The notes beneath the pieces were generated by a model. That model had not been told where the DNA came from, ran no database searches, and saw nothing but the letters and a program-made list of their open reading frames with translations. A DNA stretch of 64,000 bases from positions 434,001 through 498,000 of the forward strand of contig NZ_AP028067.1 of the NCBI RefSeq assembly GCF_030297155.1, written 5' to 3'. Shown one piece after another: positions 52,766-55,655 of the stretch. Numbering within the stretch: position 1 is the stretch's first letter; every line of letters begins with the position of its first letter. The DNA comes from Vibrio sp. FE10. Its GTDB lineage: Bacteria > Pseudomonadota > Gammaproteobacteria > Enterobacterales > Vibrionaceae. The position numbers and the translations under genes are program-made.

Positions 52766-53632
52766 ATGACAGATAACAAAACCTTGCTCACAGAGAGCCC
52801 AACTCTCTATATTGTGCCAACCCCAATCGGAAATTTGGGAGATATCACTCAAAGAGCAATTGAAATTTTATCAAGTGTCGATGTTATTGCAGCCGAAGAC
52901 ACACGCCACACGGGTAAGCTGCTTGCTCACTTCAATATATCCACCAGAACGTTCGCTTTACATGATCATAATGAACAAACTAAAGCGCAAGTTCTAGTCG
53001 AAAGGTTATTAGAAGGTCAGTCTATCGCATTAGTCTCTGATGCGGGTACTCCTTTAATCAGTGACCCAGGTTACCATCTTGTATCACAATGTCGTCAAGC
53101 GGGTGTGAGAGTTGTGCCACTTCCTGGTGCTTGTGCTGTGATTACCGCACTCAGTGCGTCTGGTTTACCGTCTGATCGTTTCAGTTTTGAAGGCTTCTTA
53201 CCGCCAAAGAGCAAAGGTCGTAAAGATAAGTTCTTAGAGATCGCAAAAGCAGAACGCACGTGTATCTTCTACGAATCTCCGCACCGTATTACTGATTCTC
53301 TACAAGACATGCTTGAGATCTTAGGCCCTGACCGTGAGGTTGTGTTGGCGCGTGAGCTGACTAAAACATTCGAAACCATTCAAGGGTTGCCACTCGGTGA
53401 GCTTATTGAGTGGATTGAAGAAGACTCGAACCGCAAGCGCGGTGAGATGGTGTTGCTGATTCATGGTCACCGTGAAGAAGCGAGCACAGAGCTGCCAGAC
53501 GAAGCGACTCGTACGCTGGGTATTCTAACCAAAGAGTTGCCCCTTAAAAAAGCAGCGGCAATGACGGCAGAGATCTACAACCTTAAGAAGAATGCACTCT
53601 ATAAGTGGGGTCTAGAACACCTAGACAACTAA
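52766..53632 (+). CDS. rsmI: 16S rRNA (cytidine-1402-2'-O)-methyltransferase
   Basis: RsmI methylates the ribose of C1402 in the P site, the partner of RsmH, encoded downstream, which methylates the base of the same nucleotide. The 288 residues have the tetrapyrrole methylase fold: [17 protein letters not shown], the [12 protein letters not shown] loop and FYESPHRI. It is divergent from lpoA and complete. Confidence 0.97.
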
Positions 53633-53699: not shown

Positions 53700-53739
53700 T
53701 GCTAACCTGCCACTCGCTCTTAAATGCATTCGCAACTCT

Positions 53740-53911
53740 CATCTCGTCAATCACATCTGCATTTAATTCTTTTCGAATCTCTCATCTCGTTACTCATATC
53801 CACTTTTAATTCTGTTCGAACCTCTCATCTCGTTACTCGCATCCGCTTTTAATTCTTTTCGAATCTCTCATCTCGTTATTCGCATCCGCTTTTAACTCTT
53901 TTCGTATCTCT
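53740..53911. repeat. Four tandem copies of a 43-bp repeat upstream of rnpB
   Basis: Units begin at 53740, 53783, 53826 and 53869, each opening CATCTCGT and closing TTCG(A/T)A(T/C)CTCT. Neighbouring copies differ at 3-5 positions in the pairs I compared. A decayed part-copy precedes the first and another (CATCTCGCTACGCG) follows the last. The plus strand is about 74% pyrimidine in the third unit. There are no unique spacers, so it is not CRISPR. No reading frame of interest. It fills most of the 400-bp gap between rsmI and rnpB. Confidence 0.93.
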
Positions 53912-53999
53912 CATCTCGCTACGCGTATCTGCTCTTCAGCTGCTTTTGTTCAATTTCCCATCAGTTAACAATCGGTTTGCAGCATATTTGTGATCTCGC

Positions 54000-54028
54000 T
54001 AGACACTGCACATTAATCTCTATACAAT
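54000..54028 (+). promoter_or_regulatory. Promoter of rnpB
   Basis: TAGACA (54000-54005) and TACAAT (54023-54028) are spaced by exactly 17 bp and each matches consensus at five of six positions. A CCGCCC discriminator follows, as expected of a stable-RNA promoter. The start would be near 54035. Confidence 0.85.
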
Positions 54029-54035
54029 CCGCCCT

Positions 54036-54476
54036 CGGAGTTGAACGGGTAATCGCTGCTTTGCTGATGTCCTTCGGGAGACTGACGTTGAGGTCCTTCG
54101 GGAAACTGACGTTGAAGTCCTTCGGGAGACTGGTAGAGGGGAGGAACGTCCGGGCTCCATAGAGCAGGGTGCCAGATAACGTCTGGGGGGCGCGAGCCCA
54201 CGACAAGTGCAGCAGAGAGAAGACCGCCGATGGCCTCATTTCTTCGGAAGAGGCACAGGTAAGGCTGAAAGGGTGCGGTAAGAGCGCACCGTGCGGCTGG
54301 CAACAGTTCGTAGCAAGGTAAACTCCACCCGGAGCAAGATCAAATAGGCCCTCGCATTGCGCTGCTCGCGTATGGGGGCGGGTAGATTGCTTGAGCCTGT
54401 GAGCGATTGCAGGCCTAGACGAATGGTTACCGCCGCGCAAGCGGAACAGAACCCGGCGTATGTGTCAACTCCACCT
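54036..54476 (+). ncRNA. rnpB: RNase P RNA, type A, with an expanded P3 region
   Basis: The catalytic RNA that trims tRNA 5' ends. The conserved blocks follow the E. coli order: AGGGGAGGAACGTCCGGGCT, CATAGAGCAGGGTGCCAG, GAAAGGGTGCGGTAAGAGCG, GTAAACTCCACCCGGAGCAA and AGAACCCGGCGTATG. P1 pairs GGAGTTGA (54037-54044) with TCAACTCC (54465-54472), which sets the ends to within a few bases. The gene is about 440 nt against 377 in E. coli; most of the excess is the triplicated hairpin unit at 54069-54132. Open frames across it are not real genes. Confidence 0.97.
54069..54132 (+). repeat. 24-nt tandem repeat inside RNase P RNA (P3 region)
   Basis: Unit 1 (54069-54092) and unit 2 (54093-54116) differ at two positions, and a 16-nt third part (54117-54132) is identical to the start of unit 1. 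Each contains GTCCTTCGGGAGAC or its one-base variant GTCCTTCGGGAAAC, whose CTTCGG forms a UUCG tetraloop. E. coli has one such hairpin here. The region 5' of the AGGGGAGG block is 100 nt, against about 56 nt in E. coli. Confidence 0.9.
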
Positions 54477-54486
54477 ATATAAAGAA

Positions 54487-54520
54487 CCCATCATTACTTA
54501 ACAGTAGTGATGGGTTTTTT
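54487..54520 (+). terminator. Terminator of rnpB
   Basis: CCCATCATTACT pairs with AGTAGTGATGGG (12 bp, one G-T pair) around a 4-nt loop and is followed by six T residues, 10 bp past the RNA. Confidence 0.92.
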
Positions 54521-54704: not shown

Positions 54705-55655
54705 ATGACAGAAGCATTCAAACATATTTCAGTATTGCTTAACGAATCTATTGACGGACTTGCGATCAAACCTGACGGTACCTACATCGATGGTACTTTT
54801 GGCCGTGGTGGTCACAGCCGTACAATCCTGTCTAAACTGGGCGAGAATGGACGACTCTTTAGTATCGACCGCGATCCACAAGCGATTGCTGAAGCTCAGA
54901 AGATTGATGATCCCCGTTTTACAATTATCCATGGCCCATTCTCGGGTATGGCTGAATATGCAGAACGTTATGACTTAGTCGGTCAAGTGGATGGTGTTTT
55001 ACTGGATTTAGGTGTTTCTTCACCACAGTTAGATGATGCTGAACGTGGCTTTAGCTTCATGAAAGATGGCCCGTTGGACATGCGTATGGATCCAACAACG
55101 GGTATTCCTGTTTCTCAGTGGTTAGTTGAAGCGGATCTTGATGATATCACTTGGGTTATTCGTGAGTTCGGTGAAGACAAACACGCTCGTCGTATCGCGA
55201 AAGGCATCATTGCTTATCAAGAGAACGAAGAGAACGAACCGTTAACGCGTACTGGTCAACTGGCTAAGCTTATTTCAGATGTTGCTCCAAAGAGCTTTAA
55301 AGAGAAAAAGCACCCAGCGACACGTGCATTCCAAGCGTTTCGTATCTACATCAACAGTGAACTTGAAGAGATCGATACCGCACTGAAAGGCGCAGCAAGC
55401 ATTCTTGCTCCTCAAGGTCGTATCTCTGTTATCAGTTTCCACTCTCTTGAAGACCGTATGGTGAAGCGCTTTATTCGTAAAGAGAGCCAAGGGCCACAAG
55501 TGCCTCACGGTTTACCGCTAACAGAAGATCAGATTAAAGCTTTAGGCAGTGCCGATCTAAAACCAATTGGTAAAGCGATCAAGCCTTCTAAAGATGAAGT
55601 GGATGAGAACACTCGTTCGCGCAGTTCAGTACTACGAATCGCAGAAAAGCTATAA
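54705..55655 (+). CDS. rsmH: 16S rRNA (cytosine-1402-N4)-methyltransferase
   Basis: RsmH methylates N4 of C1402 in 16S rRNA, the same residue treated by RsmI. The 316 residues show the SAM motif [18 protein letters not shown], the [12 protein letters not shown] block and the C-terminal [22 protein letters not shown] precedes the ATG. It is the first gene of the division/cell wall cluster here: no mraZ lies between it and rnpB. A TTGACG at 54529 with TAGAAT 19 bp on is a possible promoter. Confidence 0.97.

Follow-up and report, generated by a model that had tools for sequence, protein, structure and literature searches.

The rnpB gene of the Vibrio genome studied here carries a short sequence in tandem copies within the P3 region of its RNase P RNA, and the question raised by this locus is how such an array is accommodated in an essential ribozyme and whether it is a fresh or an old acquisition. 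The window referred to throughout is the whole stretch of DNA that was analysed, 64,000 nucleotides in length.

The rnpB gene and its setting

A match to RF00010, representing class A RNase P RNA, was obtained at 54037-54476 on the forward strand with a score of 299.6 bits as compared to a gathering score of 100. The model was aligned over positions 1-367 of 367, the surplus P3 bases being treated as an insertion, which establishes that the rnpB gene is complete. Both P1 strands (5′ and 3′) pair in this alignment, with a few non-standard pairs marked, in agreement with the initial annotation, which had described P1 as still pairing. U69 and the conserved GAGGAAxGUCC region of P4 are present as GAGGAACGUCC at 54141-54151, in which base 67 is a C, its partner 359 being a G. 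The gene is best explained as specifying an ordinary class A RNase P RNA, which is presumably active. It is located in a 6.0 Mb genome between a gene reading as RsmI, which ends at 53632, and a gene reading as RsmH, which starts at 54705, both names being assigned from the protein sequence. The features of the locus are as follows:

54000..54028, forward strand: probable rnpB promoter (TAGACA, 17 bp, TACAAT), read from the sequence
54037..54476, forward strand: rnpB, class A RNase P RNA (RF00010, 299.6 bits, model 1-367 complete)
54059..54065, forward strand: basal P3 stem, 5′ strand, partner of 54132-54138 (all 231 cells paired across the 33 distinct sequences, 4 of the pairs having changed on both sides)
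54063..54086, forward strand: unit 1, 24 nt (Tandem Repeats Finder array; register from the alignment)
54084..54089, forward strand: linker 1/2, GACGUU, partner of linker 2/3 (197/198 cells able to pair)
54087..54110, forward strand: unit 2, 24 nt, predicted to cap the rod (Tandem Repeats Finder; stem closing on itself in 98/99 cells and changing on both sides; loop of 14 types among the 33 sequences)
54108..54113, forward strand: linker 2/3, GACGUU, partner of linker 1/2 at 54084..54089
54111..54134, forward strand: unit 3, 24 nt, predicted to pair with unit 1 (Tandem Repeats Finder; RNAalifold and RNAfold)
54132..54138, forward strand: basal P3 stem, 3′ strand (same pairing count as 54059..54065)
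54147, forward strand: C in place of E. coli A67 in P4 (numbering checked on E. coli rnpB)
54458, forward strand: G in place of E. coli U359 in P4, partner of 67 (numbering checked on E. coli rnpB)
54480..54520, forward strand: probable terminator 3′ of rnpB, a hairpin followed by a T run, read from the sequence

Upstream of rnpB, a 43-nt repeat in 4.8 copies occupies the non-coding positions 53729-53933 of the window; a count by similarity gives 5 copies for the window and 6 for L044, and L062, which represents the second genome of the species, has 4. Among the matches listed, the same rsmI-rnpB stretch of related vibrios harbours arrays with periods of 7, 8, 14, 19 nt and more, or diverged 43-nt arrays, and the interval looks like a repeat hotspot.

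The 67-359 pair of helix P4

The initial annotation had considered the RNA to be conserved everywhere outside P3, which is contradicted by the P4 pair 67-359, as this is C-G here and not A-U. Among 234 readable loci, with some genomes represented twice, the pair was A-U in 167 and C-G in 67, and no mixed combination was observed; 7 more loci, unreadable at 359, lie outside the 234. An exact-pattern scan of 398 genomes made the P4 change seem confined to Vibrio, the two other matches (L273 and L274) being without an Rfam hit. This confinement was contradicted by a looser pattern applied to 239 genomes, which placed a C at 67 in at least 6 genomes from a single further family within the same taxonomic class, and a G there in at least one genome, all of these being pattern matches in putative rnpB genes. 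In an E. coli RNase P structure a metal ion is bound by the phosphates of A67 and G68 and by O4 of U69, as stated in PMC9433436.

Units of the P3 array

Tandem Repeats Finder reported an array with a period of 24 and 2.8 copies (90% matches, score 115) at 54065-54132, and the units were placed by reading at 54063-54086, 54087-54110 and 54111-54134, so that the outer edges of units 1 and 3 double as both strands of the basal P3 stem. This 24-nt array and the end-to-end RF00010 match bear out the initial annotation in its central claim, that the P3 of rnpB is enlarged through tandem repetition of its usual hairpin unit. Its description of the array as two units plus 16 nt of a third was accurate as to the 24-nt repeat but not as to the partial copy, as the third copy is not truly partial: at its 3′ end it forms base pairs with the beginning of unit 1. 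When searched for by exact matches, the unit junction pattern was present at two places in the window's genome, both of them in rnpB, and a mobile or genome-wide repeat was rejected as the source of the P3 units since the pattern search gave no such copies.

Predicted fold of the array

Folding and covariation were analysed in 33 distinct three-unit sequences, including one row from outside Vibrio (L242/L261). RNAalifold folded these sequences into one long rod, and the minimum free energy fold by RNAfold was likewise a rod in 33/33, with 8-11 core pairs between units 1 and 3 and no core pairs within unit 1. In this layout the outer strands of units 1 and 3 pair, as do their cores, and unit 2 forms the cap. 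The row of independent UUCG hairpins envisaged by the initial annotation is thus at odds with the predictions, in which units 1 and 3 pair with each other. Two registers of the rod were obtained, as the GACGUU linkers pair in 22 of the 33 sequences, the window included, while the inner part slips in the other 11, whose best folds lose the pairing of linker 1/2 with linker 2/3, contrary to the covarying closing pairs of unit 2. Weighing against the rod, the fold energy of the window is ordinary for the dinucleotide composition (z -1.02; 27 of 200 shuffles did equally well), and the single best structure accounts for only 1.5% of the ensemble; the rod pair that was checked has a probability of 0.48 in the window, with values of 0.07-0.83 over the set of 33 sequences. 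Short cUUCGg hairpins could arise first, during transcription.

Covariation backs two elements of this fold, namely the outer stem and the stem that closes unit 2, and not the core pairs between units 1 and 3. Both-sided changes numbered 13 in the outer stem, where 231/231 cells were paired, and 5 in the closing of unit 2 by the inner half of the linkers (98/99 cells paired); none of 500 shuffles was as good in either case. Unit 1 closed on itself failed in 11/99 cells, and independently self-closed units were ruled out for unit 1 by C.A and A.C mismatches at its base. Unit 3 closed on itself was paired in 99/99 cells, which is as good as the outer stem, albeit without both-sided changes. The core pairs of units 1 and 3 hardly vary, and covariation over the 33 rows consequently gives them no support and cannot separate the rod from a four-way junction. 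Loop types differ between the units, with 14 in unit 2 and two each in units 1 and 3, and the more constant loops of units 1 and 3, as compared to the free-like loop of unit 2, may be taken as an additional hint of the rod.

We therefore prefer, at a probability of roughly 0.6, the reading that tandem repetition of the P3 hairpin unit has extended the P3 arm, the copies being predicted to pair into one longer rod. As the unit is almost identical to its own reverse complement, unit 1 is predicted to pair with unit 3 across the arm and unit 2 to fold on itself as the cap, which would set a single extended rod on top of the old basal stem. Going by known RNase P structures, the arm would be peripheral and stop short of the catalytic core. 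We consider it likely that the long P3 is a tolerated peripheral expansion, or a mildly useful one.

Copy number across Vibrio and relatives

Of 196 Vibrio genomes sampled, 194 gave a match to RF00010. The P3 region was read off the sequences of rnpB loci, and unit junctions were also sought in 227 Vibrio genomes by an exact pattern, which misses diverged junctions; its per-genome counts are complete for the 227, and its places are those among the matches listed. The pattern matched in 98 of the 227 genomes, in 97 of these within P3 and in one (G041) outside rnpB, the P3 of G041 being a single 63-nt arm (L205). Among the 97 genomes with a tandem-unit P3, 95 have three units (two junctions) and two have four (G030 and G071); a two-unit P3 was encountered neither by the junction pattern among the 227 Vibrio genomes nor in the P3 regions read. 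Two of the three-unit genomes, G024 and G048, have one extra junction match elsewhere each. An assembly artefact, the alternative mentioned by the initial annotation, is very unlikely to be the source of the array, which is common to 95 of the 227 genomes with two like junctions and was read directly as three units in the loci.

In terms of length, a P3 of 36 nt corresponds to one unit, 84-87 nt to three and 109-110 nt to four, and P3 regions of 46-52 and 63-64 nt consist of a single long arm that differs in sequence. At L202 (G125) and L210 (G026), which belong to genomes of ~1 Mb placed in Vibrio, P3 is odd and diverged, with a length of 41 and 38 nt, respectively. Records with a three-unit P3 include V. 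lentus, V. splendidus, V. chagasii, V. crassostreae and V. tasmaniensis, and the V. mexicanus record has one unit. Three units are present in each of the 30 loci nearest to the window over the rnpB stretch (98-100% identity, the window's own included). The second genome of the species (G186) has the same three-unit array as the window, two genomes of the species being compared. A copy number common to all vibrios, the outcome that the initial annotation had set against its own reading, was not observed for the genus, in which one, three and four units occur, but it does describe the near-relative loci read, which have three.

Beyond the genus, an order-wide junction search over 394 genomes returned only two isolated matches outside Vibrio (G209 and G549), at loci without the rnpB motif (L212 and L213). 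A family-wide search over 296 genomes identified three units also in G607, which belongs to another genus; in G621 and G628 of this genus the junction match lies away from rnpB, and their P3 is single-unit. The P3 junctions of G607 (L261) are those of G027 and G137, and yet the remainder of its rnpB resembles no other in the 175-locus set described below by more than 87.6%. The three-unit P3 of G607 may reflect a transfer of P3 alone or convergence. At L265 (G560), in another genus of the family, P3 is cut down to a stub of 19 nt by the measure of the script.

Age and history of the long P3

Unit 1 reads GAUGUCC in 31 of the 33 distinct sequences and unit 3 reads GACGUCC (26) or GAAGUCC (7), with unit 2 being variable. 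The array appears to be old and not freshly copied, because these unit-specific bases persist across species. The initial annotation had proposed a recent or actively copied expansion, and this view is not upheld by the retention of unit-specific bases and by the three units of nearly all tandem-unit genomes (95/97).

The history of the P3 state was followed on a FastTree tree of rsmH and rsmI beside rnpB, in which 175 loci were used out of the 203 that exceed 1700 bases; repeat copies of included genomes, 12 in number, were dropped from the 203, as were 16 loci with missing or short genes or no readable rnpB, and 40 of 120 short loci, which came without refetched flanks, lie outside the tree. 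A tree of rnpB only (226 loci) was too noisy, with 21 changes and many weak branches, and was therefore replaced by the rsmH/rsmI tree. On the latter, single and tandem P3 require at least 16 changes as compared to at least 49 in 200 shuffles, indicating that the P3 state tracks descent, albeit with many exceptions.

Individual pairs of loci suggest how such exceptions may come about. L331 and L321, with flanks 96.7% and the rest of rnpB 99.2% identical, nonetheless have one and three units, respectively, which looks like a local change. L318 and L305 have flanks of 77.6% identity and an rnpB which outside P3 is 99.7% identical, the median for this flank class being 90.3% (3202 pairs), and L306 and L332 similarly combine flanking genes of 77.3% with an rnpB of 99.2% identity outside P3; these two comparisons suggest an exchange of whole rnpB between species. 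Patchiness of the P3 state among relatives may thus be due in part to rnpB alleles that seem to move between species. Several single-unit alleles equal the three-unit allele minus exactly two units (L091, L103, L108 and L136). As the distribution is patchy and rnpB is discordant with its flanks, we infer that the three-unit P3 would be an old and reshuffled allele of the genus, to which certain lineages held on for long and which others gained, lost or exchanged across species boundaries.

Alternative explanations

The P3 arm may alternatively be branched, with the outer stem and the linker helix as in the rod and with units 1 and 3 each forming their own UUCG hairpin; the resulting four-way junction could offer a docking site to a protein or to some other region of the RNA. 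In both unit 1 and unit 3 the UCC/GGA stem is paired in 99/99 cells, the UUCG loops of both units are unchanged in 32 of the 33 sequences, which a simple internal loop would not need, and such a branched arm retains the covariation-backed linker helix that is lost in 11 of the 33 rod folds. Against this, forcing hairpins in units 1 and 3 is 8.5-9.6 kcal/mol worse in all 33 sequences, and the pairs of these hairpins have probabilities of at most 0.0004. In addition, the sole departing row (L242/L261) has loops 1 and 3 altered together, to UUCA and GAUG, and carries a GNRA loop, GCAA, on unit 2. We consider the branched arm to be doubtful, although it is the least improbable of the alternatives weighed here.

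The remaining alternatives concern the origin and retention of the array and not its fold. A recent or ongoing repeat expansion, with a number of units that varies between strains as in a contingency locus, would be in keeping with units that are ~90% alike, with the one-, three- and four-unit forms within the genus and with close relatives that may differ, such as L331 and L321. It is rendered highly improbable by the uniform three units of the 30 nearest loci and of the other genome of the species, by unit-specific bases common to different species and by the lack of any two-unit form in the 227 genomes (one genome per species, two for the window's species). A long P3 retained for a selected function, be it protein binding or the tuning of RNA stability or processing, is unlikely but less so than an ongoing expansion: the long P3 is present in many species, the loops of units 1 and 3 are more constant than that of unit 2, and other Vibrio lineages have a P3 extended by unrelated sequence (46-64 nt as compared to 36), whereas the repeated changes between single and tandem forms, together with the many short-arm species, suggest that the arm is dispensable. 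A special function of the long arm is possible and is not needed to account for what is seen.

A further, tentative proposal which we regard as improbable on present numbers is that P3 changes in steps of two units. With a self-complementary unit, an odd number of copies leaves one unit to act as the cap, so that one and three units would be foldable and two would not, and the sources of change would be hairpin-aided slippage together with the swapping of alleles between species, a joint proposal to which the same reservation applies. The idea fits the 95 three-unit genomes as compared to no two-unit genomes, but the two genomes with four units weaken it, as they would not be expected under a strict rule of odd numbers.

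Relation to known systems and significance

As compared to E. coli M1 RNA and the RF00010 model, the RNA of the window is alike in its full-length match to the model and unlike in its two extra 24-nt P3 units and in the C-G, not A-U, at 67-359; it has the same P3 base and P3 unit as the single-unit vibrios. STRRs are scattered heptamers that are present at many other places in the genome. Repeats of this kind inside rnpB of heterocyst-forming cyanobacteria are reported to have been described by Vioque in 1997. The two systems share the presence of short tandem repeats inside the RNase P RNA gene and differ in that the Vibrio unit is the RNA's own P3 hairpin, the junction pattern of which occurs, within the window's genome, at rnpB alone and there twice. 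A similar comparison can be made with the lineage-specific expansion segments of RNase P RNA as described in PMC12974513, where likewise a peripheral arm grows and its base is not remodelled; the Vibrio arm is unlike these in growing by tandem copies that are predicted to pair mutually. The main text of PMC12974513 contains neither 'Vibrio' nor 'helix P3'. In the openly licensed literature no description of the Vibrio P3 was found, and an earlier description of the long arm is possible. A study in FEMS Microbiol Lett from 2001, reportedly entitled 'Structures of ribonuclease P RNAs of Vibrio core species', probably covers the genus, and the long P3 may have been described there already.

RNase P RNA is a textbook ribozyme, the side-arm growth of which is usually inferred across deep time. 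The predicted rod suggests that tandem repeats in a structured RNA need not form a row of hairpins, and the two-unit-step rule, if true, would mean that tandem duplication can lengthen an RNA arm without breaking it. As one genus has forms with one, three and four units, some of them in close relatives, and as the alleles apparently move between species, natural variants offer a means of testing how the length of an arm affects an essential ribozyme.
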